DNA of 64,000 nt from Xanthomonas sacchari. GTDB lineage: Bacteria > Pseudomonadota > Gammaproteobacteria > Xanthomonadales > Xanthomonadaceae. Of the stretch, positions 4,328 through 40,532 are shown piece by piece. The translations under genes and the position numbers were made by a program. The stretch covers positions 3,391,001 to 3,455,000 of the forward strand of contig NZ_CP100647.1 of the NCBI RefSeq assembly GCF_024266585.1, read 5' to 3'. A model generated the notes under the pieces. That model did not search any database. It saw only the letters and a program-made list of their open reading frames with translations, and was not told the DNA's origin. How positions within the stretch are numbered: position 1 is the stretch's first letter; each line of letters starts with the position of its first letter.

Positions 4328-7204
4328 TCAGAACTTCACCGTCGCCCGCGCCCAGTAGTAGCGGCCGAGCAGATCGTAGGTGGCCACGTCGGTGTTGGCG
4401 TTGGTGACGTTGTTGGCGTAGTACAGCGGCGGCTGCCGGTCGGCCAGGTTGTCCACACCCACTTCGAAGCGCGTGTTCCACGGCTTGACCTGATAGCCCA
4501 CCTGCACGCTGTGGTAGACGTAGGCGCCGATGTCGCGGACCACGGCGGGCTGGTCGGCGTCGGCCGACAGGCTCTGCCGCGTATCGGCGCTGCCGATCTC
4601 GGTACGGCCGATGTAACGGACGCGCCACGACGCGCTCCAGTCGCCCAGGTTCCAGTTCAGCGTGCCCAGCGCGCGCCAGCGCGGGAAGTTGCCGTAGGCG
4701 TAGGTGTACTTGCCGGCATTGTGGATGGTGACAGTGCTGGGGTCGGTGGTGTCGGGGTTGATGTCGTAGCGGATCACATAGGTGCCGTTGAGGCCGGCGC
4801 TGAAGCTGCCCCAGGCGGTGTCCGGCAGCCGGTAGTTGAGGCTGAAGTCGGCGCCGCTGGCCCACAGCTTGCCCAGGTTCACGGTGGGCTCGGCGATGTA
4901 GTTGATGGTGCCATTGTCGTTGCGGTGGATCAGCGCGCAGAACGCGCTGGCGTCGTTGGCGTAGCACTGGTTGAGCACGGTCTGCGCCGAGACCTGGGTG
5001 ATGGTGTCCTTGAGGTTGATCCTCCACAGGTCCGCGCTCATCGACAGGCCCTCGACCCAACCCGGGTCGTAGACCACGCCGAAGTCGTAGGACATGCCGG
5101 TCTCCGGCTTGAGCTGGTAGCCGGCCACCGCCGCACCGGAGGCCTTGGCGCCGACCTGGTTGTCGGCCTGCTGGTAGCTGCCGTCGGTGGGCACGTTGGT
5201 GCAGGCCGCGGCATGACCGCCGGTATAGCCGTTGCACGGGTCGGTGACCGACGGCGAGTCGCCGGCCACGCCGGCATACAGCTCGCTGATGTTGGGCGCG
5301 CGGAACACCTGCGAGGCGGTGCCGCGCAGCAGCAGGTTCTCGATCGGGCGGTACTCCAGCGAAACCTTGCTGTTGGTCTTGCTGCCGACGGTGTCGTAGT
5401 CGGAGAAGCGGCTGCCGACGGTCAGGTTGAGCGAATGCACGCCGGGCAGGCCGGCCAGCAGCGGGAACAGCGCTTCGGCATAGGCTTCCTTGACGCTGAA
5501 GCTGCCGCCGAGCACGGAGGCGCAGAACTCGAGCACCCCGCACATGCCGTTCTCGTCGCCGGTCCACAGCGGATCGGCGGCGGTGCTGGTGCTTTCCTTG
5601 CGATAGGAGACACCCACGGCCAGGCTCGCGGTGCCGGCGGGCAGTGCGAACAGTTCGCCGTTGGCGTTGGCCTCGAACTGCTTGACCGTATAGACGTTGG
5701 TGACGATCGGGTTGACCACCAGCGCTTCCAGCGCGGCCTTGTTGCTGGCGGCGTTGAGGTTGAACACGTCGATCGGGGTGCAGCCGGCGATCACCGCGCC
5801 GGCGCTGCCGCACTTGACCGTGCCGTCGGCGGCCAGGAAAGACGGCCCCACAGCGGCATTGAAACCGGCGTAGTCGAGGAAACCGTAGTTGATCGACTTC
5901 TGCTTGACCTTGCCGTAGTTGAGGCTGGCATCCCATTGCCAGGAACTGTCGCCGAAGCTGCCGCGCAGGCCCGGATTGATCTGGAAATTGTAGGTGTTGT
6001 ACTCGTAGCGGCGGTTGCCCAGCACCGTGGCGCGCGTATTGAAGTTGTTGTACGAGGTGCCGGTGCTGCGATCGGTACCGAAGTTGACCCCGAACGGGTT
6101 GTAGTAGCTGGCCGAGGAGACCAGGAAGTTGTCGCCGTTGGCGAAGATCGGGATCGGCGCAATGATCGAGGACGAGGTGGTCTTGCTGAAGTAGCTGTTG
6201 ACGTAGCCTTCCAGGTGATCGTTGAAACGATAGCTGCCGAGCACGAAGGCGTTGGTGCGCTCCTGCGGGGTCTGCAGCAGGTTGTACGGCTGGTAGTTGT
6301 AGGAATCGGTCGAGGCGACGTAGCAGTGGTACTGGCTGGCGTTGGTCGGGCTGCTGCTGCCGCCGTTGAAGGTGACCCGCGAACAGCCGTTGCTCGCCGC
6401 CAGCGCCTTGGCCGCGGCCGAGCCGTCGTTGAAGCTGATGCTGCCGGTCGGCGTGGCCGAAGAGCCCTGCTTCACCCCGACGCCGTCGATCAGCGACAGC
6501 GCATCCTTGGAGTAGGCCCGCGCGCCGGCCGAGACCGGATCGATGTCGTGGTAGGACAGGCCGGCGACGATGCTGCCGCGCTCGCCGGTCTTGCCGGCGG
6601 TCAGCGAGAAATTGCGGCGGTTGCCGTCGCTGCGCGAGCTGGTGCCGAAATCGGCGCTGGCCTCGATGCCGTCGAAGCCCTTGCGCAGGATGAAATTGAC
6701 CACGCCGCCGATGGCGTCCGAACCGTACACCGCCGAGGCGCCGTCGCTGAGCACCTCCACCCGCTCGATCATGGTCGCCGGGATCGCGTTGACATCGTTG
6801 CTGGCCAGGCGCGTGCCGTTGACCAGGACCAGGGTGCGCTTCTCGCCGAGGCCGCGCAGCGAGATCACCGAGGCGCCGGTGCCGCCGCCGTTGTTGGTGT
6901 TGGGGTTGGTGGCGTTGCCGGCGATCGATGGCAACTCCTGCACCAGATCGCCGAGCGTGGCCTTGCCGGTGGCCTCGATCTGCGCGCGGCTGATGGTCAC
7001 GACCGGGTTGGCGGTCTCGGTGTCGACGCGGCGCAGGCGCGAACCGGTGACCACGACGCTGTCCAGGGTCTGGGTGGCGCTGTCGGCACTGGCCTCCTGC
7101 GCCTGTGCCGCTCCCGCGCTGCCCAGCGCCAAGGCGGTGGCGACCGCCAGCGCCAGCGGCGTCGCGGCATGGCGGAAACGAGGGCGTGACGGCGAAGACG
7201 ACAT
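4328..7204 (-). CDS. TonB-dependent receptor 1 (CUT-type outer-membrane transporter)
   Basis: A 958-residue outer-membrane receptor that should import an energy-rich ligand, probably arabino-oligosaccharide, using TonB. A signal peptide ends at AGAAQAQEA near residue 35. The plug domain follows with LDSVVVTGSRLRR, LGDLVQELPSIAGNA, RTLVLVNGTRLAS, DVNAIPATMIERVEVLSDGA and AVYGSDAIGGVVNFI, the signature of the large NMPF/CirA-like receptor class of Xanthomonas. The rest is a 22-strand barrel ending in RYYWARATVKF with a terminal Phe, as needed for BAM recognition. The ATG at 7204 is preceded by CAGGAGT. The gene is monocistronic and has the composite promoter described at 7511-7575. Its relative at 18557-21385 shares the layout and several loops (DPCNGYTGG), suggesting an old duplication with related ligands. 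Confidence 0.92.
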   Translation of the reverse strand: MSSSPSRPRFRHAATPLALAVATALALGSAGAAQAQEASADSATQTLDSVVVTGSRLRRVDTETANPVVTISRAQIEATGKATLGDLVQELPSIAGNATNPNTNNGGGTGASVISLRGLGEKRTLVLVNGTRLASNDVNAIPATMIERVEVLSDGASAVYGSDAIGGVVNFILRKGFDGIEASADFGTSSRSDGNRRNFSLTAGKTGERGSIVAGLSYHDIDPVSAGARAYSKDALSLIDGVGVKQGSSATPTGSISFNDGSAAAKALAASNGCSRVTFNGGSSSPTNASQYHCYVASTDSYNYQPYNLLQTPQERTNAFVLGSYRFNDHLEGYVNSYFSKTTSSSIIAPIPIFANGDNFLVSSASYYNPFGVNFGTDRSTGTSYNNFNTRATVLGNRRYEYNTYNFQINPGLRGSFGDSSWQWDASLNYGKVKQKSINYGFLDYAGFNAAVGPSFLAADGTVKCGSAGAVIAGCTPIDVFNLNAASNKAALEALVVNPIVTNVYTVKQFEANANGELFALPAGTASLAVGVSYRKESTSTAADPLWTGDENGMCGVLEFCASVLGGSFSVKEAYAEALFPLLAGLPGVHSLNLTVGSRFSDYDTVGSKTNSKVSLEYRPIENLLLRGTASQVFRAPNISELYAGVAGDSPSVTDPCNGYTGGHAAACTNVPTDGSYQQADNQVGAKASGAAVAGYQLKPETGMSYDFGVVYDPGWVEGLSMSADLWRINLKDTITQVSAQTVLNQCYANDASAFCALIHRNDNGTINYIAEPTVNLGKLWASGADFSLNYRLPDTAWGSFSAGLNGTYVIRYDINPDTTDPSTVTIHNAGKYTYAYGNFPRWRALGTLNWNLGDWSASWRVRYIGRTEIGSADTRQSLSADADQPAVVRDIGAYVYHSVQVGYQVKPWNTRFEVGVDNLADRQPPLYYANNVTNANTDVATYDLLGRYYWARATVKF

Positions 7205-7510
7205 GAGCGGACTCCTGGAGGGTGGGAAGACGGGACAGTGGACAAACGCAGGCCGAACGACGCCGTGCCGGCGCCATGCCGACGGACGGACCTGCTGACG
7301 GTGGCGCCTGCGCGGCGCCTGCGGTGGCGTGCCTGCGCCGGACCATGACGGTCTGGCGCACCGCGGGGAAGCCGATGTCCTGCGCGCACGGCTGGTGCGC
7401 GGCTCCCCCGCTACTGCGATGACGTCCGATGACGACGGCGGCGCTCCGGTGGCGCGCGCCGGCGCCACGGCCGGTACGACGATGCGATCAGATTTTCATC
7501 ACACGGTCAC

Positions 7511-7575
7511 ACTGTGACGTGGATACGCGGCCGCGTCTTGTCGCGATTCGCGGTTTCGCGTGCGGAATCATGCAT
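7511..7575 (-). promoter_or_regulatory. Composite promoter module, copy 1 (upstream of TonB receptor 1)
   Basis: Read on the minus strand, this has a half-site ending CCGCAC (palindrome position 7560-7575, the other half degenerate) and 18 nt. ACAAGACGC at 7541-7533 follows, then, 18 nt after CAAGAC, CACAGT at 7516-7511 followed by GTGACC. Three other units in the window share the same elements with almost the same spacing. CAAGAC and CACAGT sit at -35/-10 spacing, so I infer a promoter with an upstream operator. The module lies about 300 bases from the start codon; the 7205-7708 gap holds no other supported feature. Confidence 0.6.
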
Positions 7576-7708
7576 GGTCGTGCGCGGCTCGGCGCCGGCA
7601 CGCGGCAACCATGCCGCGGCATGGCGCTGTGTCGCGCAGACACGACCACGACAGGCACACGCTGCCATCGGCCGCGCGCGGCGATGCCGACGGTGCACGC
7701 AAGCCGCG

Positions 7709-10123
7709 TCACGCCGGGATCAGCCAGCCGCCGAACAGCGGGCCGGCGGTGTCGCCGTGCTGCGGTTCGATGCGCAAGGTCAGCATCTGCGCATCGCGGG
7801 TCAGCGCCGGCGGCAGCGGATAGTCGCGGTCGACGAAATCGATCACCTGGCCGCGTTCCACCGCCACCTCCACCGCCAATTGCCCGTTGACCAGGATGTT
7901 GAAGCGCCCCTTGTCGCTGCCCCAGAAGCGCAGGCGCAAGGCCAGCGGCTGCGTGCTGCCGCGCATGCGGAACTCGACGAAGCCCTTGCCGCGCACGTCG
8001 CGGCACTGCTGGCGGCGGTAGGCGCCGCCGAAGGAGGTGTCGCTGCGCAACTGGTGGGCCTGCTCGGATGCGTCGTCGCCGAACTGGATCATGTCCACCG
8101 CCGTGGCGCGCAAGCTGTCCTGCTCGGCCTGACGGCGCGCCCGCCGCTGCGCTTCCTGTTCCCATTGGGCAGGGTCCAGGCGCTTGAAGTACAGCGCACT
8201 GCGGCGTTCGTACTGGGCGTAGAACGGCACGAAGGTCAGGCCCGGCGGCTGCGTGGTGCTGGCCAGGAAATGGCCCGGCTGCGGCAACTCGGCAAAGCCA
8301 CGCAGCGGATCGGCGGCGGCCACCAGCGCCGGGTCGGGCGCGTCGTAGGGCATACTCACCGGCCCCAGGTCGGCGGCCAGCGCCAGCGGCCCACGCATCA
8401 CCACCACCGTGTCCGCATCGCCGGCGGCCTGCTCCAGCCGCAGCGGCGTGGCCAGCTCCAGGTCGACCACGTCGCCATCGCGCCAGTCGCGTTCCAGCGC
8501 CAGGTAGCCGTCGGCCAGCGCCGCACGTGCGGATTTGCCGTTCACGCGTAACGTGTAGCGCCCCTGGCTCCAGGCCGGCACCCGCAACAGCAGCCGGCGC
8601 GGCGTACGCGCGCCGGCACGCAGCACCTGCAGGCGCACCTTGCCGTTGTCGGGCACGCCGCTGTCCAGTTCCAGCGCCAGGTCGCGCTCGGGCCAGTCCA
8701 GGCGCGAAGGGATATAGAGATTCACGTACAGCGACGTGGCGTCATGCCAGTAGATCGCATCGCCGAACTGCGCATGCGCTTCCATGCCGCTGCCGACGCA
8801 GCACCAGAACGAATCGAACTTGTCGGAGAAGCCGCGTTCGCCGCCGCTGATCATCGGCGTCATGTAGGTGAACATGCCGGTGGCCGGATGCTGCGCAGCC
8901 ATGGTGTGGTTGTGCAGGGTCCGCTCGTAGTAATCGAAGTAGCGCGCCTGCGGCGTCCACTGGTACAGGTGCCGGGTCAGCTTGAGCATGTTGTAGCTGT
9001 TGCAATGCTCGCAGGTCTGCTCGGTCAGGAACGCGGCGATGGTGTCCGGTTCCTGGAAGTACTCACGGTCGGCATTGCCGCCGATCACGTAGCTGTAGTG
9101 CGCGGTCACCGTCTCCCAGAAGAAGCGCGCCGCCGCGGCCGCGTCGGCATCGCCGGCGACCTCGAACTGGCGGGCCTCGCCGATGAACTTGGGCACCTGG
9201 GTGTTGGCGTGGATGTGCGGCAAGGCATCGCGCCCGGCCGCGGCCGGGTCGATCACCTTCTCGTGGCGCAGGCGCTTGCCGATGGCGATCCAGCGCGCAT
9301 CGCCGGTGCGCGCGCCCAGCTCGATGTAGGACTCGTTGAGACCGCCGAACTCGGTGTCGAGCAGGGTCTGCATCTGCGCGTGGTCGAGCGCGTCGAACAC
9401 GCCGGCGGTGTACGTGGCCAGCGGCAACAGCACCGCCAGCGCCTGGGTGCTGCCGGCCAACGCATGCGCGTCGAGCAGGCCGGCGAACAGCTTGTGCTGG
9501 GTGTACAGCGGCGACCAACTGCCATTGAGGTTGAACTTGCTGCCCTTGATGATGCCGCGGCGCACGTCCTCCAGCACCGCCTTGCCGCCCTCGATCTCGC
9601 CCTTGTCGTTCTTGCGGGTGAAGCCGCCGACGTAGCCGTCCGGATCCTGCGCCTGCGCGCGCGCCAGTTCGGCGACGATGTAGTCGATGCGCTCGCGCAG
9701 CACGGGGTCGCGGGTCTGCGCGTGCATCTTCGCCAGTGCGCTGAGGTAATGGCCCAGCGTGTGGCCGGCGATGGTGTCGCCCTCCCAGCCGCCATACACC
9801 GCGCCCTTCGGCGGCAGGCCCGCGTACTGCAGGAAGTTGTGCAGCAGGCGGTCCGGCTCCAGTTCCAGCAGATAGCGGCGGTTGGTCTGCAGCGAATCCA
9901 GGAACAGCGACGGCTTCAGCGTGACCTGCTGCAACGGCAGCGCCTGCACCCGCCCGGGCATGGACGCGGCGGCGTCCAGCGGGAACCGCAGCATCCCGGC
10001 CGCCACCGCCAGCGCGCTCCATTGCAGGAAGCGACGCCGCGACGGATCCAGCGCAACGCCGGCCGCGCCGTCGACGGCATGCGCACACGCAGCGCCGTGC
10101 CGATGCGTGCCCTGCCCGCTCAT
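7709..10123 (-). CDS. GH127 beta-L-arabinofuranosidase (HypBA1-like), Tat-exported
   Basis: An 804-residue retaining glycosidase of family GH127 (old DUF1680). The characterised member HypBA1 splits beta-1,2-linked arabinofuranose disaccharide released from hydroxyproline-linked arabinans. A twin-arginine signal SRRRFLQWSALAVAAG lies near residues 29-44. The (alpha/alpha)6 domain has WEGDTIAGHTLGHYLSALA, TCEHCNSYN at about residue 370 and FWCCVGSGMEAHAQ at about residue 440. The E-x-C and CC cysteines match the zinc-binding and nucleophile residues of the family, so the enzyme looks active. The ATG at 10123 is chosen because GGGAGG sits 6 nt before it; an ATG 45 bases upstream has no such site. 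It is in its own transcription unit with promoter copy 2, between the receptor and an Svx-like gene. Confidence 0.9.
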   Translation of the reverse strand: MSGQGTHRHGAACAHAVDGAAGVALDPSRRRFLQWSALAVAAGMLRFPLDAAASMPGRVQALPLQQVTLKPSLFLDSLQTNRRYLLELEPDRLLHNFLQYAGLPPKGAVYGGWEGDTIAGHTLGHYLSALAKMHAQTRDPVLRERIDYIVAELARAQAQDPDGYVGGFTRKNDKGEIEGGKAVLEDVRRGIIKGSKFNLNGSWSPLYTQHKLFAGLLDAHALAGSTQALAVLLPLATYTAGVFDALDHAQMQTLLDTEFGGLNESYIELGARTGDARWIAIGKRLRHEKVIDPAAAGRDALPHIHANTQVPKFIGEARQFEVAGDADAAAAARFFWETVTAHYSYVIGGNADREYFQEPDTIAAFLTEQTCEHCNSYNMLKLTRHLYQWTPQARYFDYYERTLHNHTMAAQHPATGMFTYMTPMISGGERGFSDKFDSFWCCVGSGMEAHAQFGDAIYWHDATSLYVNLYIPSRLDWPERDLALELDSGVPDNGKVRLQVLRAGARTPRRLLLRVPAWSQGRYTLRVNGKSARAALADGYLALERDWRDGDVVDLELATPLRLEQAAGDADTVVVMRGPLALAADLGPVSMPYDAPDPALVAAADPLRGFAELPQPGHFLASTTQPPGLTFVPFYAQYERRSALYFKRLDPAQWEQEAQRRARRQAEQDSLRATAVDMIQFGDDASEQAHQLRSDTSFGGAYRRQQCRDVRGKGFVEFRMRGSTQPLALRLRFWGSDKGRFNILVNGQLAVEVAVERGQVIDFVDRDYPLPPALTRDAQMLTLRIEPQHGDTAGPLFGGWLIPA

Positions 10124-10243
10124 CGCCGGCCTCCCGCGTGCGACGCGGCCTGCGGGAAAGAAACGCATCGAGGCATGAGCTGCTCCTGTATGGGGTGGCG
10201 GGACACCGACGCTGCAGGGCACCTGACCGGCGGATCCGTTGTC

Positions 10244-12364: not shown

Positions 12365-12510
12365 GATTCTAAATTCCTCTTGTCCGGTGAAGTTAGAAGT
12401 TGGATTCGCGGACCGAATCCAGTGCGGCAACAGCGAATTTACCTTGCAGCGATCTTGATGCGATCAGCACCTCCTCTCACGATGTTTGGAAACCCGAACC
12501 CCCGTCACAA

Positions 12511-21385: not shown

Positions 21386-21571
21386 CGGAAATCTCCTGAG
21401 CGGCAGCCTGGCGATCGCCGGAGCGCCGCCCTTCCCCAGGCGGGCGCCCCATCGCCAGCGCGTGTGGCGGATACGAAAACGGACGTGTCCACGCATGCGC
21501 CGCCGGACGGGACGATCCCGACGCCGCCTGCACGGCGACGCGCAGGAGCCATGCGCTGCGTCCCCGGTGAG

Positions 21572-21611: not shown

Positions 21612-21677
21612 AATGTGCGCGTAGGACGCGCGCGGCGTCTTGTCGTATTTATCGGGAAAACGTGCGGAATACCGCAC
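21612..21677 (-). promoter_or_regulatory. Composite promoter module, copy 3 (upstream of TonB receptor 2), with full palindrome
   Basis: On the minus strand the module reads GTGCGG-TATT-CCGCAC (21677-21662), 18 nt, ACAAGACGC (21643-21635), then 19 nt after CAAGAC the element CACATT (21617-21612) followed by GTGACC. The palindrome is perfect. The arrangement equals copies 1, 2 and 4. Confidence 0.7.
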
Positions 21678-24085: not shown

Positions 24086-24115
24086 CTACCGTCCCCGATG
24101 CAATGCGATCGTCGC

Positions 24116-24180: not shown

Positions 24181-24235
24181 AGCCACGTGGTCGCGGCGGT
24201 GCTGCGTCACGGCAGCGCGACGCGGCGGTGACGGC

Positions 24236-24544: not shown

Positions 24545-24606
24545 GGCAGACGGGGCGCGCAGGGAGGCTTGCCGGGGTATCGGCTGATGTGGCGATGTCT
24601 TTAGTG

Positions 24607-24836: not shown

Positions 24837-24839
24837 TCC

Positions 24840-27152: not shown

Positions 27153-27188
27153 ACTGTTTCCAATCACTTCGATAACACGCTTTTTTGC

Positions 27189-27271
27189 GTAGGAGCGGCT
27201 TCAGCCGCGACAGCCATTACCGGTAAAGCCCGTCGCGGCCAATCCCACAAAGGGGACAAGAACCGCTCCTA
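27189..27271. repeat. REP-like inverted element
   Basis: Starts GTAGGAGCGGCTTCAGCCGC and ends with CCGCTCCTA; inner arms around GTAATGG/CCGGTAA and GCGACA/CGTCGCGG are imperfect. It belongs to the same family as the element at 4041-4100. It fills most of the gap between the APC permease and S9 peptidase genes and could stabilise or terminate the permease mRNA. Confidence 0.8.
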
Positions 27272-27293
27272 AGCCCTTCCACACACGCAACGG

Positions 27294-28865: not shown

Positions 28866-28920
28866 GGCGTCTCCCGCTGGAAGTGGTGTCACTGGCGATT
28901 CAACGATCTGCGGCGCTCCC

Positions 28921-29300
28921 TACCCTCACCCCAACCCCTCTCCCGATGGGAGAGGGGCTACTCCCTTCTCCCTCCGGGAGAAGGTGCCCCGCAGGGGCGG
29001 ATGAGGGTCCGGGCGCAGCCTCGTGCAGTTGAAACACCGCATGCGCTTCGCGCCCCGACCCTCACCCCAACCCCTCTCCCGGTGGGAGAGGGGCTTGTAC
29101 CTCCCTTCTCCCTCCGGGAGAAGGTGCCCCGCAGGGGCGGATGAGGGTCCGGGCGCAGCCTCGTGCAGCTGAATCCCTCATGCGCTTCGCGCACTACCCT
29201 CACCCCAACCCCTCTCCCGAGGGAGAGGGGCTTGTACGTCCCTTCTCACTCCGGGAGAAGGTGCCCCGAAGGGGCGGATGAGGGTCCGGGCGTAGCCTCG
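28921..29300. repeat. Three tandem ~137-bp palindromic repeat units
   Basis: Three head-to-tail units begin with CCCTCACCCCAACCCCTCTC at 28923, 29059 and 29197 (periods 136 and 138). Each holds GGGAGAGGGGC, CCTTCTCCCTCCGGGAGAAG, GTGCCCCGCAGGGGCGGATG, AGGGTCCGGGCGCAGCCTCG and a TGCGCTTCGCGC linker. Several short palindromes lie inside each unit. The rest of the 28866-29431 gap (29301-29431) shows no gene or repeat I can identify. Confidence 0.9.
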
Positions 29301-29431
29301 TGCCAGTTCGACCGCTCAAGACTGCACCACGTCCCCTCACCCGCATCCCCTCGCTCGCATCTCCACCCTGCCCCATGGCCTCGAACGGCGGCGAGGGCCG
29401 TTCGCCATCCCGGCGCGTGGCGACGCGTTCG

Positions 29432-33099: not shown

Positions 33100-33181
33100 C
33101 GGTGGACTCCGCGGGACGGGGCGTGTCCGCTGCACGGCGCGGCACACGCCGCGCAAGCTGCCGGGGCCGCCGCCGCCCGCA

Positions 33182-34390
33182 TCAGGCGAACGGCCGGTCG
33201 ATCGCCGGCGACGGCGGCGTGAACCACTGCGCGCCGTCTTCGGTGACGTAGAAATGATCCTCCAGGCGCACGCCGAACTCGCCCGGCACCACGATCATCG
33301 GTTCGTTGCTGCAGCACATGCCCGGGGCCAGCGGCAAGGCATTGCCGCGCACCAGATACGGCGCCTCGTGGATGCTCATGCCGCAGCCGTGGCCGGTGCG
33401 GTGCGGCAGCCCGGGCAGTTGGTAGTCCGGGCCGAGTCCGGCACGCTGCAGCACCTTGCGCGCGGCCTCGTCCACCACCGCGCAGGCCACGCCCGGACGC
33501 ACCGCGGCGAACGCCGCCGCCTGCGCGTCGTGCTCCAGTTGCCAGATGCGCCGCTGCTTCTCGCTGGGCTCGCCGAAGATGTAGGTGCGGGTGATGTCGG
33601 AGTGGTAGCCCTGCACGGTGCAGCCGGTGTCGATCAGCACCAGCTCGCCCGGGCGCAGCGCCTGCACGCCGGGAATGCCGTGCGGATACGCGGTGGCGTG
33701 ACCGAACTGCACGATGCAGAAGGTCGAGCCGTTGTCGGCGCCGAGCGCGCGGTGCGCCTGGTCGATGAAGCGGGTCAGTTCCGCGGTGGTGATGCCCTCG
33801 CGGATCAGCCCGGCGGCCAGCCGCTGCACCTGCAGGGTCATGTCGCAGGCCTGCTGCATCAGCGCCAGTTCCGCCGGCGACTTGCGCATGCGGCAGCCGT
33901 CGACGATTGCCGTCGCATCGCGGATCGCGATCCGGCCCAGCACCGCGGCCAGGCCGGTATGCACCGCGAAGGCCACGCCCGGGTCCAGCGCCAGGGTCTG
34001 CGCGTCCAGTTCCAGCAAGGCCTCGGCGACCAGTGCGTGCGGATCCTCGTGTTCCTGCCACAGGCGCTTGCGCACCGGCAGGCACAGCACCGCGTCCAGC
34101 GAGCCTTCCTCGAACGCCGGGCAGATCAGCAGCGGATCGCCTTCGGCGGTCAGCAGCATCGCCACCAGGCGCTCGCTGGCGCCCCACGGCACCCCGGTGA
34201 AGTAGCGCAGCGAAGCGCCGGCGCCGATCAGCAGCGCGTCGGCGCCGTGCGCGCGCATCAGCGCGCGCGCGTTGGCCAGGCGTTGCCGGTATTCCTGCTC
34301 GTGGATCGCGGGCGCGCGCTGCGGCCACGGCGCCAGTTGCGCATGCGCCTGCTCCAGGGTCAGCCCGCCGATCTGGCTGTGCTCGCTCAT
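33182..34390 (-). CDS. M24-family Xaa-Pro-type aminopeptidase/dipeptidase
   Basis: A 402-residue cytosolic metallopeptidase with the creatinase N-domain and pita-bread fold. The five metal ligands are visible: Asp in LVLIDTGCTV near residue 253, Asp in YHSDITRTYIFGEP, His in LPHRTGHGCGMSIHE, Glu in CSNEPMIVVPGE, and Glu in GVRLEDHFYV. No signal peptide is present. Its start overlaps the stop of the semialdehyde dehydrogenase gene as ATGA, so it is part of the hydroxyproline operon. The likely role is to split Xaa-Pro or Xaa-Hyp dipeptides and feed free hydroxyproline to the pathway. Creatinase-like activity is a less likely alternative. Confidence 0.9.
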   Translation of the reverse strand: MSEHSQIGGLTLEQAHAQLAPWPQRAPAIHEQEYRQRLANARALMRAHGADALLIGAGASLRYFTGVPWGASERLVAMLLTAEGDPLLICPAFEEGSLDAVLCLPVRKRLWQEHEDPHALVAEALLELDAQTLALDPGVAFAVHTGLAAVLGRIAIRDATAIVDGCRMRKSPAELALMQQACDMTLQVQRLAAGLIREGITTAELTRFIDQAHRALGADNGSTFCIVQFGHATAYPHGIPGVQALRPGELVLIDTGCTVQGYHSDITRTYIFGEPSEKQRRIWQLEHDAQAAAFAAVRPGVACAVVDEAARKVLQRAGLGPDYQLPGLPHRTGHGCGMSIHEAPYLVRGNALPLAPGMCCSNEPMIVVPGEFGVRLEDHFYVTEDGAQWFTPPSPAIDRPFA

Positions 34391-35979
34391 GCGCTGCGCT
34401 CCACGTCGGCGGTGCTCCAGATGCCGTCGATCAACCGCTGCACGCCGCCGGGATTGCGGTCGCGCAGCAGCGCCGGCAGCAGCGCGTCGGGCACGCCGTC
34501 GTAGCTGTGCAGCGCGGCGAAGCGGCGGATCGCCGCGGGCATGCCGACCGCGGTGAAGCCCGGATGGCCGGTGCTCGGATACGGGCCGCCATGGTTCATC
34601 GCCGGGCTCACCGCCACGCCGGTCGGCATCTTGTTGCAGATCAGGCGCCCCACCCGCGGCCGCAGCGCCGCGGCCAGCGCGGCGAAGGCCGGGTCGTCGC
34701 TGCCGTCGGCGGCACGATAGAGGGTGCCGGTGAGGTTGCCCTCGAAGCTGCGCGCCAGGGCGGTCAACTGCCCCAGCCCGCCGCCGCGCACGATCAGGCT
34801 GACCGGGCCGAAGGCCTCGGTCTGCAGCGCCTCGGGCTGCTGCAGGAACGCCTCGGCCGATACTTCCAGCAGGGTCGGCGCATGTCGGTAACCCGGCCCC
34901 GCGGCGGCCTCGCCGCCGGCCAGCACCGTGGCACCGGCATCGCGCAGCGTGCCCACGCTGCGCTGCAGATGCTCCAGCACGCCGCGCGAGAACAGCAGCG
35001 CCGGCGCGGCCGCGGCGAAATGCGCGGTGGCCGCGGCGACGAAGGCATCGCCGGCCTCGCCCTCGGGCACCACCACGATGCCCGGGTTGGTGCAGAACTG
35101 GCCGCTGCCCATGGTGCAGGAGGCGAAGAACTCCTGCGCCAGCGCCGCGCCGCGTTCGGCCAGCGCGCCCGGCAGCAGGAACACCGGATTGACGCTGGAC
35201 AGCTCGACGTAGGCCGGCACGCCGGCCCGGTCGGCGGCGGCCTTCAGCGCCAGCCCGCCGGCACGGCTGCCGGTGAAGCCGATCGCGCCCAGCCGCGGAT
35301 CGCCGGCCAGTTCCAGGCCCAGCGTGCTATCGAAGTGATACAGCAACTGCACCGTCGCCGCCGGCAGGTCGTGCGCCAGCAGCGCCTGGTGCGCGAGCTG
35401 GGCCAGGCGCTGGCTGGTGGCAGGATGCGAGGGATGCGCCTTGGCGATGACCGGATTGCGCGCGGCGATCGCCGAGGCGAAATCGCTGCCGGCCACCGCG
35501 TTGAACGCGAACGGGAAATTGTTCGGGCCGAACACCAGCACCGGCTTGTGCAGCGGCCCCAGCTGCGCGCGCAGGCCGGCCGCGGTGTCGATCACCGGCT
35601 GCGCCCAGCTGTGGCTGCGCACCGCCTGCGCGGCCTGGCGCAACTGCCCGCTGGCGCGCGGCAGTTCCACCTTGGCCAGGCGCGGCTCCACCGGCAGCCC
35701 GGTCTCGGCATGCGCCAGCGCCACCAGCTGCGCGAGGTCGGCGTCGATCGCGTCGGCGTACGCCTCCAGGAACCCGGCGATGCGTTCCGGCGCGGCCGCG
35801 GCCAGCGCATCGGCGCTCAGCGCCGCCGCGCTCAGCGCCGCTTCCAGGTCGGCGGCGCCGCTGACCGGGAACGACGGGCCGAATTCGCTCCCGTCGCGCG
35901 GATCCTCGGCGCGGAAACTGCCGCGCTCCTCCAGCGACGCCTGCCAGTGGCCGGCCAGCAACAGCGGTTGCATGCTCAT
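34387..35979 (-). CDS. 2-oxoglutarate semialdehyde (2,5-dioxovalerate) dehydrogenase
   Basis: A 530-residue NAD(P)-dependent aldehyde dehydrogenase that oxidises 2-oxoglutarate semialdehyde to 2-oxoglutarate, the last step of hydroxyproline breakdown. Features are VLVFGPNNFPFAFNAVAGSD, AKAHPSHPATSQRLA, the Rossmann GFTGSRAGG, the Glu in PAYVELSSVNPVF near residue 259 and the nucleophilic Cys in GSGQFCTNPGIV near residue 296. The GFTAVGMPAAIRRFAALHSYDG tail is typical of the KGSADH group that works in hydroxyproline and sugar-acid operons. It starts one base after the deaminase stop and ends overlapping the M24 peptidase start. Confidence 0.93.
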   Translation of the reverse strand: MSMQPLLLAGHWQASLEERGSFRAEDPRDGSEFGPSFPVSGAADLEAALSAAALSADALAAAAPERIAGFLEAYADAIDADLAQLVALAHAETGLPVEPRLAKVELPRASGQLRQAAQAVRSHSWAQPVIDTAAGLRAQLGPLHKPVLVFGPNNFPFAFNAVAGSDFASAIAARNPVIAKAHPSHPATSQRLAQLAHQALLAHDLPAATVQLLYHFDSTLGLELAGDPRLGAIGFTGSRAGGLALKAAADRAGVPAYVELSSVNPVFLLPGALAERGAALAQEFFASCTMGSGQFCTNPGIVVVPEGEAGDAFVAAATAHFAAAAPALLFSRGVLEHLQRSVGTLRDAGATVLAGGEAAAGPGYRHAPTLLEVSAEAFLQQPEALQTEAFGPVSLIVRGGGLGQLTALARSFEGNLTGTLYRAADGSDDPAFAALAAALRPRVGRLICNKMPTGVAVSPAMNHGGPYPSTGHPGFTAVGMPAAIRRFAALHSYDGVPDALLPALLRDRNPGGVQRLIDGIWSTADVERSA

Positions 35980-35980
35980 C

Positions 35981-36886
35981 TCAGTGCCCGGGATGGGTGG
36001 CGATGGCGTGGTCGATCACCTTCAGCGCGGCTTCGCGCTCGGCGCCTTCCAGCACCAGCCGCGGCGCGCGCACGCGCTCGCTGCCCAGGCCGACCTTCTC
36101 CTGCACCAGCTTGATCAGCTGCACGAACTTGGGCACGGTATCCAGGCGCAGCAGCGGCAGGAACCAGTCGTACAGCGCCTTGGCCGCCGGGTAGCCGCCG
36201 TCGCGGGCAAGCTCGAACAGCTTCACCGACTCCTTCGGATACGCGTTGACCAGGCCGGCGATCCAGCCCTTGGCTCCCATGCTCAGGCCTTCGACGATCG
36301 CATCGTCCATGCCCACCAGCAGCACCAGGCGGTCGCCGAGCAGCTCGCCCAGCGCGGCGAAGCGGCGCACGTCGCCGGAGGATTCCTTGACCGCCTGCAG
36401 GTTCGGGAACTCGGCCGCCAGCTCGGCGATCTGCGCCGGGCTGAAATCGGTCTTGTAGGCGATCGGATTGTTGTACAGGATCGCCGGCAGGTCGGTGGCG
36501 GCGATCACCGCGCGCATGTGCGCGCCCATCTCGCGCCAGTCGGTGGAATACACGTACGGCGGCAGCACCATGATGCCCCCGCAGCCGACCTGCTTGGCCG
36601 CCTGCGCCAGGCGCACCGCTTCGTCGGTGGACAGCGCGGCGATGCCCGGCACCACCGGGATGCGGCCGTCGACTGCCTGCACCAGGGTCTTCAGGATCGC
36701 CAGCTTGTCGTCGAAGCTCAGCGTGGCCGCCTCGCCCAGCGAACCCAGCGGCACGATCGCGGTGCAGCCGGCGTCGACCATGAGCTGCGCATGCTTGGCC
36801 AGGAACGCGTGGTCGATGCTGCCGTCGGCGTTGAACGGGGTGGTGATGGCCGGCAGCACGCCGTACCAGAAGGAAGCCTTGCTCAT
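35981..36886 (-). CDS. Delta1-pyrroline-4-hydroxy-2-carboxylate deaminase (DapA superfamily)
   Basis: A 301-residue TIM-barrel Schiff-base enzyme of the DHDPS/NAL superfamily. The GxxGE-like motif is PLGSLGEAATLS. The conserved Tyr is in AILYNNPIAYKT near residue 139 and the Schiff-base Lys in LQAVKESSGDVRRF near residue 165. In hydroxyproline operons this family converts delta1-pyrroline-4-hydroxy-2-carboxylate to 2-oxoglutarate semialdehyde with release of ammonia. The assignment rests on the complete pathway around it; by sequence alone it could also be an aldolase of related type. The ATG at 36886 overlaps the stop of the upstream FAD oxidoreductase gene as ATGA. Confidence 0.88.
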   Translation of the reverse strand: MSKASFWYGVLPAITTPFNADGSIDHAFLAKHAQLMVDAGCTAIVPLGSLGEAATLSFDDKLAILKTLVQAVDGRIPVVPGIAALSTDEAVRLAQAAKQVGCGGIMVLPPYVYSTDWREMGAHMRAVIAATDLPAILYNNPIAYKTDFSPAQIAELAAEFPNLQAVKESSGDVRRFAALGELLGDRLVLLVGMDDAIVEGLSMGAKGWIAGLVNAYPKESVKLFELARDGGYPAAKALYDWFLPLLRLDTVPKFVQLIKLVQEKVGLGSERVRAPRLVLEGAEREAALKVIDHAIATHPGH

Positions 36887-38253
36887 GGAAGTACACCTTG
36901 TGGAGAGTTGCGAAGGGATGCCGCGCACGAAGGCGCGGCGCAAGCGGTGTCCGGACCCGGGTCCGGACAGGGATGGGCCAGCGCGTGCAGCCGCGCCGGG
37001 AACAGCGGCGGCCGGCGGCCGTCGTCGGAGAAATCGTCGGCGCGCGCGGCCAGCCCCAGTTCGGTCAGCGCACTGCCGCAGATGCGGCCCTGGCAGGCGC
37101 CCATGCCGCAGCGCGAAGCCAGCTTGGCGTCGCGCAGATCGGTGTGGCCGCGCAGCGCCGCCAGCGGCACGTCCTCGCAGCGGCACACCAGCGTGTCCGG
37201 CGCGGCCAGTGCATGAATGCGCGGGTCCAGCGCGAACTGCCGCTGCAGCAACGCGGCGAAGGCGCGCGCACGGCGCCGCCGCGGCTGCAGCGCCTGCGCC
37301 GCGGCATCCTGGCCGGCGGCCAGGTGGCCGGCGATCGCGCCTTCCGCGCGCGCGCAATCGCGCCCGCCGATGCCCAGCGCCTCGCCGGCGGCGTACACGC
37401 CGTCGACGCTGGTGCGCAACTGCGCATCCACCGCCACGCACGGGTGCACGCCGCTGCGCCCCAGTCGGCAGCCCAGCAGTTGCGCCAGTTCCACGTTCGG
37501 CACCAGGCCGTAGCCCACCGACAGTTGATCGCAGGCCAGACGGCGGCGACCGCGCGGGCCGTCGATCTCCACTTCCTGCACGCGGCCCTCGCCGTGCGCG
37601 GCCAGCACCACGCTGCCGGCGTGGTAGCCGACCCCGGCCAGTTGCGTGCGCAGCGCCAGCGCCTGCAGCGCCTTGTCCGGCCAGCGCAGCGGCAATTGCG
37701 CGGCGAATGCGGCCAGCGCGCGCCACGGCGCCTGTTCGACGATGCCCAGCACCTGCGCGCCATGGCGCTGCAGCGTCGCCGCCGAGGCCAGCAGCAGCGG
37801 CCCGCTGCCGGCGACCAGCACGCGCCGCCCGTGCAGCGGCCAGCCCTGCTTGGCCAGCGCCTGCGCGCCGCCGGCGCCGGTCACCCCGGGCAGGGTCCAG
37901 CCCGGGAACGGCAACAGCAATTCGCGCGCGCCGGTGGCCAGCACCAGCGCGTCGTAGCCCAGCCAGCGCGGGCCGTCCGGGCCATCGGTGAGCAACTGCC
38001 GGTCCTGCGCCAGCAGCACCTGGGTCTGCGGCAGGAACGTCACCGCGCTGGCCGCCAGTTGCGCCAGCGCACGCGCGGCCAGGCGCGGCGGCGCCTGGGC
38101 CACGTCGTGGCGCCAGATCTGGCCGCCGGCACGCGCCTGCAGATCGACCAGGCCGACGCGGCGGCCATGCCCTGCCGCGGCCAGCGCCGCCGCCAGCCCG
38201 GCCGGGCCGGCGCCGATCACCAGTACCTCGTAGTGGGCGCGCGGCTCAGCCAT
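36883..38253 (-). CDS. D-hydroxyproline dehydrogenase subunit: FAD/NAD(P)-binding protein with BFD-like Fe-S domain
   Basis: A 456-residue flavoprotein subunit of the HcnB/OoxA type. The N-terminal FAD-binding loop is VLVIGAGPAGLAAALAAAGH, followed by GGQIWRHDV. The second dinucleotide fold is RRVLVAGSGPLLLASAATL, and the DGVYAAGEALGIGG motif closes the flavin site. The C-terminal cysteines in LVCRCEDVPL and CGMGACQGRICG mark a BFD-like [2Fe-2S] domain. With the small [2Fe-2S] protein and the DAO-type FAD protein encoded just upstream it should form the heteromeric cis-4-hydroxy-D-proline dehydrogenase that reduces a membrane electron carrier. Its start overlaps the previous gene by 8 bases and its stop overlaps the deaminase start. 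Confidence 0.87.
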   Translation of the reverse strand: MAEPRAHYEVLVIGAGPAGLAAALAAAGHGRRVGLVDLQARAGGQIWRHDVAQAPPRLAARALAQLAASAVTFLPQTQVLLAQDRQLLTDGPDGPRWLGYDALVLATGARELLLPFPGWTLPGVTGAGGAQALAKQGWPLHGRRVLVAGSGPLLLASAATLQRHGAQVLGIVEQAPWRALAAFAAQLPLRWPDKALQALALRTQLAGVGYHAGSVVLAAHGEGRVQEVEIDGPRGRRRLACDQLSVGYGLVPNVELAQLLGCRLGRSGVHPCVAVDAQLRTSVDGVYAAGEALGIGGRDCARAEGAIAGHLAAGQDAAAQALQPRRRRARAFAALLQRQFALDPRIHALAAPDTLVCRCEDVPLAALRGHTDLRDAKLASRCGMGACQGRICGSALTELGLAARADDFSDDGRRPPLFPARLHALAHPCPDPGPDTACAAPSCAASLRNSPQGVLP

Positions 38254-38494
38254 CGGTCCACACCTGCATGCCGTCGCGCGCCGGGGTGATGCAGGCGCGC
38301 AACTGGCCGACGCGGTCGATGCGCACCCGGCATTCGGCGCACACGCCCATGCCGCACAGCGGCGCACGCGGCTGGCCGCTGCGCGAGCGGCGGAAATGCG
38401 GGGCGACCTGCGCCACCGCCGCGGCCACGCTGCTGCCGTCGAGTACTTCGACGTCGCGGCCATCGACCTGCAGGCGCAGCATCCGCGCGCTCAT
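38246..38494 (-). CDS. D-hydroxyproline dehydrogenase small [2Fe-2S] subunit
   Basis: An 82-residue ferredoxin-like protein of the HcnA/SoxA-type small subunit family. The four cluster cysteines are in LCGMGVCAECRVRID and QLRACIT (spacing C-x4-C-x2-C-x11-C). The gene sits between the two flavoprotein subunits, overlapping the upstream one as ATGA and the downstream one by 8 bases. This order matches heteromeric amino-acid dehydrogenases such as LhpBEF. Its likely role is electron transfer between the flavins. Confidence 0.87.
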   Translation of the reverse strand: MSARMLRLQVDGRDVEVLDGSSVAAAVAQVAPHFRRSRSGQPRAPLCGMGVCAECRVRIDRVGQLRACITPARDGMQVWTDG

Positions 38495-39594
38495 GCCAGC
38501 GCCCGCGCCGGCGCGTACGGCGCCGGATCGATCGCCGCGGGCCGCTGCAGCAGTTGGTCCAGCAGCAGGCGCGCACTGCCCAGCGCGGTGGTCACGCCCA
38601 AGCCTTCGTGGCCGGCCGCGACCCACACGTCGCGCCGCTCCGGCACCACGCCCAGGTACGGGCGCCCGTCCGGCGTGGCCGGACGTAGGCCGGTCCACAC
38701 CCGGATCGCCTGCAGTTGCCGCAGGCCCGGCAGGAACGCGAAGGCGCGCTCCAGCATCCGCTGCAGCATCGGCATCGACACCGCGCGGTCGGTCGCATCG
38801 AATTCGCGCGAGGAGCCGATCAGGATCTGCCCGGTCGGCCGCGGCTGCACGTTGAACGCCACGCTGCTGCCGTCGCTGCCGTGCGCGCTGTCGGCATAGC
38901 CCAGCTCCAGCAATTGATGGGCGACGAAGCCCGGATAGCGATCGGTGATCACCAATTGTCCCTTGCGCGCCCGCATCGGCAGTTCCGGCAACAGTTCCGG
39001 CAGGGCGCAGCCGGTGGCGACCAGCACCGGGCCATGCAGCGCGCTGCCGTCGTCCAGGCGCACGCCGGCAGCGACCAGCGCGGTGGCGCGGCGCCCGGCG
39101 TACAGTTGCGCGCCGGCGGCGCAGGCGCGCTCGACCAGGTAGCGCGCCATCCGCGGCGGATACACCACCGCCTCGGCGGCCACGCGCATGCCGCCGGCCA
39201 GGCCCGGCACCAGCGCCGGCTCCAGTTGATACAAGCGCTGCGCATCGAGCGCTTCGGCGTGCACGCCGGCCGCGGCCAGGCGCTGGATCTTGGCCGGAAT
39301 CGCCGCCAGCTCGCGCGCCTCGCGCGCCACCCACAGCGTGCCGCAGCGGCTGAACTCGGCCTGCGGCAGCGGCGCGAACTCTTCCCACAGGCGCAGCGAG
39401 TACGCCGACAGCGCCAGTTCCGCCGGATCGTCGTCCATCGCCACCAGATGGCCCATGGCCGCGGCGGTGGAACCGCCGCCGATGCTGCCCGACTCGACGA
39501 TCGCCACGCGCAGGCCGGCGGCCGCCGCCGCATCGGCGCAGGCCGCGCCGACGATGCCGGCGCCGACGACGATCAGGTCGAAACCGCTGCTCAT
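38491..39594 (-). CDS. lhpB: D-hydroxyproline dehydrogenase catalytic FAD subunit (DAO family)
   Basis: A 367-residue FAD-dependent oxidoreductase of the D-amino-acid oxidase/glycine oxidase family. The FAD loop is [20 protein letters not shown], followed by [18 protein letters not shown]. Later motifs are VTGC-like [18 protein letters not shown]-type [13 protein letters not shown] and [14 protein letters not shown] with HEGLGVTTA, all of the family. It should oxidise cis-4-hydroxy-D-proline to delta1-pyrroline-4-hydroxy-2-carboxylate. The symbol follows the Pseudomonas LhpBEF naming; the other two subunits are encoded directly downstream. The gene overlaps both neighbours by 4 bases. Confidence 0.87.
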
Positions 39595-40532
39595 GCGGCG
39601 CCGATGCCCCAGGCGAACGGATCCTGCGGATCGAGCAGCAACTGTGCGCGGGCGGTGATGAAGGCCTGCCCGGTGATGCGTGGCAATACCCCGCGGGTGC
39701 CGGGCGCATAGCTGCCCTCGAACACGCTGCCGAGGATGCCCTGCTGGCGCCACACCTGGCCCGGCGCCAGCTTGCCGTCGGCGGCCAGGCACGCCAGCTT
39801 GGCGCTGGTGCCGGTGCCGCACGGCGAACGGTCGTAGGCCAGGCCCGGGCACAGCACGAAGTTGCGCGCATCGGCGCTGGCGTCCGGCGCCGGCCCGTTG
39901 ATCTCGATATGGTCGATCTCGCCGCCGTCGGCGCCGCGGATGCCCGCCGCCTCCAGCGCCAGCCGCACCGCCTCGGTATAGGCGGTCAGCGCGCGCTGGT
40001 GGCGCAGCTCCAGCGCGCACGGCGTCTGTTCGGTGATGAAGAACCAGTTGCCGCCCCAGGCGACGTCGCCGCGCACGCGCCCGTACTCGGGCACCAGCAC
40101 GTCGATGCCGGTGGCATGGCGGTAGCTCTCGACGTTGTCGACCGAGACCCGGCCGTCGGCATGCAGTTCCACGCCGACCGTGCCCACCGGCGTCTCGATG
40201 CGGTGCGTGCCCGGGCTCAGCCGGCCCAGGTCGGCCAGCGTGCGCACCAGGCCGATGGTGCCGTGGCCGCACATGCCCAGGTAGCCGACGTTGTTGAAGA
40301 AGATCACCGCCGCGCAGGCATCGGCGGCCACCGGCGGCAGCAGCAGCGCGCCGACCATGGTGTCCGAGCCGCGCGGCTCGCAGGCGATGGCGCTGCGCCA
40401 GCGGTCGAAGCGCGTGCGGAACAGTTCGCGGCGTTGGGCCAGGGAACCGGTTCCCAGATCGGGGAAGCCGGAGACGACGACACGGGTCGGTTCGCCGGCG
40501 CTGTGCGAGTCGATGACATCGAGTGTATGCAT
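39591..40532 (-). CDS. lhpA: 4-hydroxyproline 2-epimerase (proline racemase family)
   Basis: A 313-residue cofactor-independent epimerase that converts trans-4-hydroxy-L-proline to cis-4-hydroxy-D-proline, the first step of the pathway. Both catalytic cysteines are present: Cys near residue 88 in [13 protein letters not shown] and Cys near residue 236 in [20 protein letters not shown]. The first being Cys rather than Ser/Thr fits epimerases and not trans-3-hydroxyproline dehydratases. The N-terminus [19 protein letters not shown] is typical. The ATG at 40532 is the first gene of the operon, and its stop overlaps the start of lhpB. A palindrome related to the arabinan-side operators lies about 55 bases upstream. 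Confidence 0.93.

Follow-up and report, generated by a model that had tools for sequence, protein, structure and literature searches.

A region of the Xanthomonas sacchari genome is likely to be a conserved locus for utilising hydroxyproline-rich glycoproteins of the extensin type. In this reading, removal of arabinose chiefly unmasks the polypeptide, and one factor probably acts at both halves of the locus, the one for sugars and the one for hydroxyproline. We analysed a window of 64,000 nt (GCF_024266585.1, NZ_CP100647.1, 3,391,001-3,455,000), and all coordinates are window positions. It has receptors, degradative enzymes and a shared element, which make it a candidate TonB-receptor utilisation locus (CUT/PUL-like) with putative transport and regulation.

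Results

Profile and structure matches recovered every gene type listed by the original prediction, on the minus strand and close to where it had placed them (Table 1). The inventory needed amending in that its "GH127" enzyme is of GH146 type, P788, sited among the listed genes, had been left out, and the PAS-AraC regulator lies just beyond the region it covered.

Table 1. Features of the locus in window positions, with E-values after each match
Feature	Position	Strand	Evidence
Ldh_2, DpkA-like delta1-pyrroline/piperideine-2-carboxylate reductase	1714..2832	+	PF02615 9.3e-92; 1wtj 2.6e-74
TBDR1, TonB-dependent receptor	4328..7468	-	PF00593 1.9e-37, PF07715 4.2e-23
Element upstream of TBDR1	7535..7574	-	TGCATGATTCCGCA-N19-ACAAGAC
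GH146-type beta-L-arabinofuranosidase, XeHypBA1 counterpart	7709..10222	-	PF07944 1.5e-125; 5opj 6.5e-130
Svx-like DUF6055 protein	10520..12364	-	PF19527 6.8e-89; HELTH at residue 143
GH43, HypAA counterpart	12619..14214	-	PF04616 1.4e-34
GH121 beta-L-arabinobiosidase, HypBA2 counterpart	14211..18563	-	6m5a 1e-211; exact start uncertain
TBDR2, TonB-dependent receptor	18557..21496	-	PF00593 8.2e-32, PF07715 4.2e-20
Element upstream of TBDR2-GH121-GH43	21637..21676	-	TGCGGTATTCCGCA-N19-ACAAGAC
P788, 788 aa, Tat-type N-terminus	21719..24085	-	no Pfam/NCBIfam family; predicted models and fold matches
Element upstream of P788	24140..24179	-	TGCGGTTTTCCGCA-N19-ACAAGAC
S9 (DPPIV-like) peptidase	24840..27167	-	PF00930 2.3e-53, PF00326 2.2e-47; GASAGG at 633
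APC amino acid permease	27294..28892	-	PF13520 9.5e-45
DUF885a protein	29432..31273	-	PF05960 1.2e-160
DUF885b protein	31270..33156	-	PF05960 6e-173; lipobox-like LTAC close to N-terminus
M24 Xaa-Pro-type peptidase	33182..34390	-	PF00557 7.9e-60
Aldehyde dehydrogenase family, putative 2-oxoglutarate semialdehyde dehydrogenase	34387..35979	-	PF00171 8.9e-39
DHDPS family, putative hydroxy-D-proline imine deaminase	35981..36886	-	PF00701 2.7e-61
Pyr_redox_2 subunit, putative D-hydroxyproline dehydrogenase	36883..38253	-	PF07992 1.2e-28
2Fe-2S (Fer2_4) subunit	38246..38494	-	PF13510 2.4e-22
DAO-family FAD subunit	38491..39594	-	PF01266 1.8e-64
4-hydroxyproline epimerase	39591..40532	-	NF010577; 4juu 7.1e-167; both Cys motifs
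Element upstream of epimerase operon	40589..40602	-	TGCGAATTTCCGCA
PAS_4 + HTH_18 (AraC-type) regulator, LhpR-like layout	40695..41411	+	
Further element upstream of MCP (chemoreceptor) gene	55418-55431		

The GH127 label was rejected: the protein matches the GH146-type structures 5opj (E = 6.5e-130), which we take to be a GH146 structure, and 8k7x (8.8e-49) more closely than the GH127 structures 4qjy (9.6e-21) and 3wkw (6.9e-14). The structure-match listing also labels 8k7y as GH146. The protein carries E405, C407, C474 and C475, placed by what we assume to be the spacing of the HypBA1 residues and corresponding to the Zn-binding Cys3-Glu site with Cys nucleophile of GH146 (clan GH-P). XeHypBA1 of X. 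euvesicatoria is a GH146 member, and the residue roles are taken from the same source (PMC10850190). The GH43 protein scores 120.2 bits against PF04616 (cut-off 32.2), with HypAA-type activity putative. The GH121 protein is homologous to 6m5a (E = 1e-211), and its E376, D494 and E705 align with the catalytic residues; HypBA2 has three conserved acidic residues, E383, D515 and E713 (PMC7263609). The TBDR2 and GH121 genes overlap by 7 nt.

The DUF6055 protein is called Svx-like, a name kept from the original prediction. The N-terminus of the S9 peptidase resembles a signal peptide, and no obvious signal peptide was found at that of the M24 peptidase. DUF885a is a putative peptidase. Outside the main run, the Ldh_2 gene is separated from the locus by an IS110 element; it adjoins TBDR1 in six relatives and is a possible associate of the locus.

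Six genes (34387-40532, minus strand) form a 4-hydroxyproline operon. By family and spacing it has the lhp-type layout of epimerase, DAO + Fer2 + Pyr_redox_2 dehydrogenase, DHDPS deaminase and KGSADH, and the same features give its enzymes their putative activities. From the epimerase through M24, the overlaps between adjacent genes are 4 or 8 nt, bar one 1-base gap; DUF885b starts 25 nt past M24 and overlaps DUF885a by 4 nt. 4-Hydroxyproline epimerases have two active-site Cys motifs, and trans-3-Hyp dehydratases have Cys/Thr; the epimerase here carries GMCGHGT and DRSPCGTGT. Its longer reading frame scores 443.4 bits against NF010577 (cut-off 442), and its match 4juu (X. campestris) is counted among 4HypE structures (PMC4113996). 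The aldehyde dehydrogenase falls under every NCBIfam cut-off among the matches listed. Divergent from the epimerase, the PAS-AraC protein agrees with LhpR in both domains and position, making it a candidate LhpR-like regulator of the operon. LhpR itself is reported to contain a PAS domain (PMC8694187).

P788 returned zero matches to Pfam and NCBIfam profiles at E 0.001. On the strength of weak predicted models, it is a candidate (alpha/alpha)6 glycoside hydrolase whose family is unnamed. The original prediction called the system "complete", which is too strong because the families recognised here include no alpha-galactosidase that would act on the galactose linked to extensin serine, a step that P788 may supply. 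In Novosphingobium clusters, an alpha-galactosidase gene adjoins S9.

The element TGCGnnnTTCCGCA precedes the hydroxyproline operon as well as P788 and TBDR2-GH121-GH43, and is therefore common to both halves. Its longer form, TTCCGCA-N19-ACAAGAC, has three copies in the whole genome, all inside the locus, as are 52/52 copies across 18 genomes of the genus. At the hydroxyproline promoter the TGCGnnnTTCCGCA part is present and the ACAAGAC half is absent. Within the window, no element was found upstream of S9, APC, GH146 or Svx. The proposal of one regulon therefore finds support at four units, the hydroxyproline operon, P788, TBDR2-GH121-GH43 and TBDR1, and does not extend to those four genes.

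We considered whether two independent loci, one with arabinosidase and TonB genes and the other the hydroxyproline operon, were inherited side by side and are functionally uncoupled. Shared descent alone could explain the near-identical order within the genus, where the GH121-epimerase distance is 19-23 kb in 20/20 genomes and 13 genes (the regulator, and epimerase to TBDR2 with DUF885b left out) are kept in 19/19 relatives; this order may reflect inheritance rather than selection. In one relative (G019), GH121 is broken and GH43 is missing. The genes that lack the element also favour uncoupling, as do two Pseudoxanthomonas (L065/L066) and two Stenotrophomonas (L084/L085) loci with the hydroxyproline operon and S9 and no arabinosidase in view. 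Against it stand the locus-concentrated element common to both halves and the return of GH146 together with hydroxyproline genes, rearranged, in Stenotrophomonas and Luteimonas and in more distant genomes. On balance, we regard uncoupled loci as unlikely.

The wider surveys bear on the same question. GH121 is found in 12 of 149 Xanthomonadaceae; the epimerase accompanies it in 12/12 and lies at most 27 kb away in 11. All 17 of the 149 with a close GH146 also have the epimerase, at 17-40 kb in 15/17. In a 398-genome sample of the phylum, a Pro_racemase-family gene lies within 30 kb in 5/6 genomes that carry a close GH146. Distant GH146/GH127 homologues make a weak control, since only 3/11 could be assigned to the contig that holds the epimerase. 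Novosphingobium and one Caulobacter carry arabinosidases with DUF885, DHDPS, a racemase-family gene and S9 in other gene orders. These racemase-family genes have both epimerase Cys motifs; their identity is only ~34-36%, which counts against the glycoprotein-utilisation reading. Because the arrangement recurs in other genomes, it is more than chance. The original prediction was to fall if the halves adjoined only in this strain; they adjoin in 20/20 genus genomes and lie close in other genera, and this objection therefore fails.

L-arabinose isomerase (AraA, PF02610) was not found in 20/20 genus genomes, and X. euvesicatoria is reported to be unable to use L-arabinose (PMC6085000). The carbon gain from arabinose that had been predicted is thus doubtful, on evidence that covers the isomerase route. 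With AraA absent, we take the role of the arabinosidases to be the unmasking of the polypeptide, the food being hydroxyproline and amino acids. If the locus instead served chiefly to feed on the arabinose of glycoproteins or arabinans, and the hydroxyproline operon were a side branch for free hydroxyproline, the presence of three arabinosidases and both TonB receptors would be accounted for. A Bifidobacterium enzyme set of like kind serves arabinose nutrition (PMC6085000). However, M24 and DUF885 genes lie within the close-packed run of hydroxyproline genes, and together with the missing isomerase and the X. euvesicatoria phenotype this makes the arabinose reading very unlikely.

Weakening of the plant wall, also predicted, is not supported, as X. 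euvesicatoria single and triple deletion mutants remained pathogenic (PMC6085000). In that species HrpX and a PIP-box govern the GH121-GH43 operon, which is induced in plants (PMC6085000), and a PIP-like sequence lies upstream of Svx in our window. That sequence was not seen, by eye, in seven relatives, and the window holds 7 PIP-like matches against a shuffled mean of 3.02, with at least 7 in 6/100 shuffles, which is near chance. An HrpX-controlled plant-interaction (virulence) system with nutrition secondary is therefore highly improbable, the more so given related clusters in Stenotrophomonas, Luteimonas and Novosphingobium. The authors of that work report a neighbouring peptidase gene with a frameshift and, in X. 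phaseoli, a hypBA2 pseudogene, which they read as decay; they ask what the enzymes are for and suggest that these may have lost their use (PMC6085000). This decay and the HrpX control weigh against the utilisation reading.

Discussion

In the proposed utilisation locus, GH43, GH121 and GH146 would strip the Hyp-linked arabinose chain, as shown for their X. euvesicatoria counterparts, and P788 would probably take off another glycan. The Svx-like and S9 peptidases would then cleave the bared chain and the TonB receptors would import the products. The DUF885 and M24 proteins and the APC permease would supply free hydroxyproline, which the operon, judged by its enzyme families, would convert to 2-oxoglutarate in the expected order. 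The TGCGnnnTTCCGCA element before both halves is probably bound by a single factor, for which the divergently encoded, LhpR-like PAS-AraC protein is the likeliest candidate.

We hold a bolder version only tentatively and think it rather unlikely: that a hydroxyproline-sensing PAS-AraC regulon runs extensin uptake, deglycosylation, hydroxyproline catabolism and the chemoreceptor gene (MCP), and that P788 is the first member of a new glycoside hydrolase family and takes alpha-galactose off extensin serine, as an analogue of the Novosphingobium alpha-galactosidase.

The preferred reading, a glycoprotein utilisation locus, offers a testable answer to the puzzle of why Xanthomonas keeps Hyp-arabinofuranosidases although X. 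euvesicatoria cannot use L-arabinose and its mutants are still pathogenic (PMC6085000). It may explain arabinose-cutting enzymes in bacteria without the usual arabinose-eating gene. If true, past assays of virulence and arabinose measured the wrong output, and the relevant one is whether extensin or hydroxyproline supports growth as a source of carbon and nitrogen. The occurrence of related clusters in several proteobacterial families hints that this way of recycling plant wall protein is more widespread. A short DNA element, a candidate regulator and a protein of unnamed family (P788) are now open to assay.

The Pseudomonas lhp operon for trans-4-hydroxy-L-proline encodes an epimerase, a heteromeric D-Hyp dehydrogenase, a DHDPS-family deaminase and KGSADH, with LhpR, and has its enzyme families in common with the operon here. 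The locus here differs from lhp in also holding peptidases and, close by, deglycosylating enzymes and TonB receptors, with the element in common. GntR-type HypR regulons likewise control hydroxyproline catabolism (PMC5343134), whereas the regulator here is PAS-AraC. The XeHypBA1/XeHypAA/XeHypBA2 system of X. euvesicatoria is, like ours, a GH146 + GH43 + GH121 set; it removes Ara4-Hyp stepwise, and its authors noted an adjacent prolyl-oligopeptidase gene (PMC6085000). The sections of that paper on these enzymes treat them without a hydroxyproline operon, P788 or shared element. The word TonB is absent from its main text. Bifidobacterium longum HypBA1/HypBA2/HypAA shares the GH121 + GH43 logic on Hyp-linked arabinofuranosides, with GH121 catalytic residues conserved, but combines it with GH127 and an ABC importer, whereas the locus here has GH146 and TonB receptors, plus peptidases and hydroxyproline catabolism (PMC7263609, PMC6085000).

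Gene content of the locus

The window corresponds to G000:C1:3391001-3455000 in a genome of 4.89 Mb on a single contig. Gene starts and families were called from open reading frames, codon-position GC and Pfam/NCBIfam matches. On the minus strand, from high to low coordinate, the genes run epimerase, DAO, 2Fe-2S, Pyr_redox_2, DHDPS, aldehyde dehydrogenase (KGSADH), M24, DUF885b, DUF885a, APC, S9, P788, TBDR2, GH121, GH43, Svx-like, GH146 and TBDR1; a PAS and AraC-type regulator diverges from the epimerase. From epimerase to M24, neighbours share 4 or 8 nt, except for a single 1-base gap. A spacer of 25 nt separates M24 from DUF885b, which in turn shares 4 nt with DUF885a.

The gene list of the original prediction was correct apart from some corrections; for example, the GH127-clan enzyme is GH146-type, with its Glu and Cys residues retained. 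The X. euvesicatoria counterpart is assigned to GH146 in PMC10850190. GH121 aligns with the solved B. longum enzyme 6m5a at E 1e-211, and in this alignment HypBA2 E383, D515 and E713 correspond to E376, D494 and E705. PMC7263609 reports the three B. longum residues as conserved and essential. The epimerase has both Cys motifs, its closest structure is 4juu from X. campestris, and it narrowly passes the NCBIfam 4-hydroxyproline epimerase model (443.4 bits, cut-off 442).

P788, a 788-aa protein, had no match among PDB sequences up to E 10, and a lax Pfam scan gave nothing above cut-off, with weaker matches such as a Tat signal. A profile-profile comparison found no relationship to GH121 (probability 0.1%). 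Fold matches of P788 come from the poorer of its models, and absence from these lists does not rule a family out. We also rejected P788, DUF5695 and alpha-galactosidase as simple mutual replacements beside S9, because locus L073 carries P788 and DUF5695 together. The DUF5695 protein is possibly another glycan enzyme of the system.

Features noted in and around the locus (window positions; G and L handles denote genomes and loci of the genome collection)
Feature	Position	Strand	Observation
IS110-family transposase	2902-3978		separates DpkA-like gene from locus
PIP-like sequence	12413-12437		5' of Svx
P788	21719-24085	-	
P788-S9 gap	24180-24839		long match to GH35-like gene of L045 in five relatives, short remnant in three; no match in the window
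Repeat-like sequence	27168-27293		5' of S9; recurs in relatives
Repeat-like sequence	28893-29431		5' of APC; recurs in relatives
Perfect palindrome TGCGGAATTCCGCA	55418-55431		5' of MCP chemoreceptor gene (start near 55240)
Second GH127/GH146-clan gene (L002)	G000:C1:3312143-3313390		same genome, ~85 kb off
GH121 in pieces	G019:C1:1394691-1396691		GH43 absent; hydroxyproline genes all still matched
DUF5695 protein	L073:14565-17318		adjoins GH146 in Sphingomonas cluster
DUF5695 protein	L059:12385-15111		adjoins GH146 in Sphingomonas cluster

Co-occurrence of the sugar and hydroxyproline halves

All 20 genus genomes encode both epimerase and GH121, 19-23 kb apart by coordinates. We compared gene content in 40 kb from each of 19 relatives. 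Every one has the regulator (truncated by the stretch edge in G006 and G013), epimerase, dehydrogenase subunits, DHDPS, KGSADH, M24, DUF885a, APC, S9, P788 and TBDR2. GH43 is missing from one relative (G019) and present in 18, and GH146 was found in 18, lying outside the fetched stretch in G004. G001 and G012 lack DUF885b, and G015 and G019 keep a remnant of it. Seven relatives have an Svx-like match, and 12 have a further S9 copy at 46-50% identity.

With a cut-off of E 1e-90, the epimerase was detected in 28 of 149 sampled Xanthomonadaceae. Seventeen of the 149 encode a GH146 of at least 50% identity, and all of these also have the epimerase; the two genes lie 17-40 kb apart on one contig in 15 and on separate contigs in the other two (G048, a 520-contig assembly, and G030). 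GH121 occurs in 12 genomes, 12 of them with the epimerase, within 27 kb in 11 and on another contig in G048. As a control, none of 11 GH146 matches at 37-43% identity was seen near the epimerase; this control is weak, since only three were placeable (G003, G016, G082; same contig, at least 290 kb away), with five on other contigs and three in genomes without epimerase.

GH146 at 45% identity or more was found in six genomes of a 398-genome phylum sample, our own included. Five of them (own, G047, G505, G578, G638) have a Pro_racemase-family gene on the same contig, no more than 30 kb away, and G322 has none; G578 has a second such GH146 with no Pro_racemase-family gene nearby. The neighbourhoods in G505, G578 and G638 also hold M24, plus DUF885 or DpkA-like genes. 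Eight weaker GH146 matches all lacked a nearby Pro_racemase-family gene: one (G421) is on the same contig at ~0.6 Mb, two are on other contigs, and five are in genomes with no match over the cut-off. The linkage of sugar and hydroxyproline halves that had been claimed is real and widespread.

An S9 query of the genome collection matched at least 588 loci; other arrangements were seen among the best 80. Ten Xanthomonas loci keep KGSADH-M24-DUF885-APC-S9 together, followed by P788 in nine; in L049 the contig stops first. P788 and GH146 are additionally present in two Stenotrophomonas loci, L051 from Stenotrophomonas rhizophila and L097. In Stenotrophomonas L052 and L054 and Luteimonas L057 and L083, the hydroxyproline operon, APC, S9, a DUF885 gene, a TonB receptor and GH146 occur in rearranged order. 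GH146 was not in view in Pseudoxanthomonas L065/L066, Stenotrophomonas L084/L085 or Luteimonas L062. Novosphingobium L061, L090 and L094 combine DpkA-like, DUF885, GH43, DHDPS and racemase-family genes with an S9 gene adjoining a melibiase-type alpha-galactosidase; L094, the sole one checked for a TonB receptor, has it, and both L090 and L094 show a GH146 fragment at their edge. L063 and L067 carry GH146 with DHDPS, DUF885, S9 and a racemase-family gene. Both Cys motifs were present in all 17 racemase-family matches examined. S9 stands alone in many of the 80 loci and so is by itself no marker of the system.

A promoter element shared by both halves

Upstream alignments of the epimerase operon, TBDR2 and TBDR1 have a common block, TGCGnnnTTCCGCA. 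Our genome has six sites (seven rows, one palindrome being read on both strands): four at the epimerase, TBDR2, P788 and 5' of the MCP gene, and two in other places. The reversed pattern, run as a control, matched three times. The 20 genus genomes gave 141 rows, or 139 sites once the second strand of two palindromes is dropped. The reversed control gave 82 rows, so sites outside the locus are near background. Between -2 and +42 kb of the epimerase lie 62 of the 139, all 62 in operon orientation. The epimerase and TBDR2 sites served to define the block, so these (19 and 20 of the 62) do not count as independent. Among the remaining 100 sites, 23 fall in the locus against 0.9 expected; the genomes are related and hence not independent, and the probability calculated for this excess is not to be read at face value. 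Twelve of these are at P788 and 11 at the far end, three before a mapped TBDR1 (G001, G011, G012) and eight at or past the point where the stretch read stops, the presumed place of TBDR1. In G015, an exact site at the epimerase was not found.

The window has five copies of the relaxed form TGCN4TTCCGCA, one at each of the four locus promoters and one at the MCP gene. Nine loci of Stenotrophomonas, Luteimonas and Pseudoxanthomonas were examined; in eight it also precedes the epimerase, and in L062 the core is TTTCAACA. This links the core element to the regulator's own intergenic region and makes it a candidate binding site. The MCP gene is within the stretch in 9 of 11 relatives, with exact TGCN4TTCCGCA in six and a variant in three, and the sequence after its element resembles a flagellar sigma-28 promoter. 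The APC and S9 promoters gave repeat-like alignments, and no block in common with the epimerase promoter was seen. A second site for the epimerase-promoter block CAAACGCTGCTAGCC was rejected: five window matches at up to 3 mismatches, versus 2.67 expected, included none convincing.

A longer element, TTCCGCA-N19-ACAAGAC, lies 5' of TBDR1, TBDR2 and P788. We scanned 297 Xanthomonadaceae genomes, including 18 of the 20 genus genomes, with a spacer of 18-20. All three matches in our genome are in the locus, as are all 52 in the 18 genus genomes by coordinates (three in each of 16 genomes, two in G008 and G019). Overall, 108 matches occurred in 53 of the 297 genomes; the reversed control gave 11, with 0 in the 18. 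Matches outside any such locus in other genera (e.g. G107, G122, G148) are as background predicts. In five more Xanthomonas with known epimerase position (G035, G081, G108, G133, G154), 10 of 10 matches lie 17-37 kb from it. In other Xanthomonas, about 92 nt separate the long form from P788 downstream of it, and two Stenotrophomonas loci have the short palindrome at the same spacing to P788 in opposite orientation.

The arabinosidase/TonB locus and the hydroxyproline operon might merely have been inherited side by side. Relatedness among the genomes would suit such an account; with the core element at promoters of both halves and the pairing recurring in rearranged order in other genera, we consider it improbable. 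HrpX/PIP-box control was rejected, as PIP-like matches in the window are near chance in number, by-eye reading of 130 nt 5' of Svx in seven relatives saw none, and a stricter scan (-10 rule, operon strand only) found 0 across the 40-kb regions of the 19 relatives.

Fate of the sugar and comparison with known systems

AraA (PF02610) was absent in 20 of 20 genus genomes and detected in 5 of 14 control genomes. According to PMC6085000, X. euvesicatoria is unable to use L-arabinose and stays pathogenic with all three arabinosidase genes deleted, and its authors pose the question why the arabinosidases exist. As described in PMC5371791, the serines of extensin bear alpha-galactose and its hydroxyprolines carry chains of arabinofuranose. 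Taken together, these points suggest that the arabinosidases would open the polypeptide to peptidases. We infer that the locus probably serves glycoprotein utilisation, with the peptide and its hydroxyproline as the nutrient.

Our searches, with subscription journals mostly outside their coverage, found no literature linking Xanthomonas arabinosidases with the hydroxyproline operon. The individual parts are already known; within the reach of these searches, their combination with a shared element has no earlier description.
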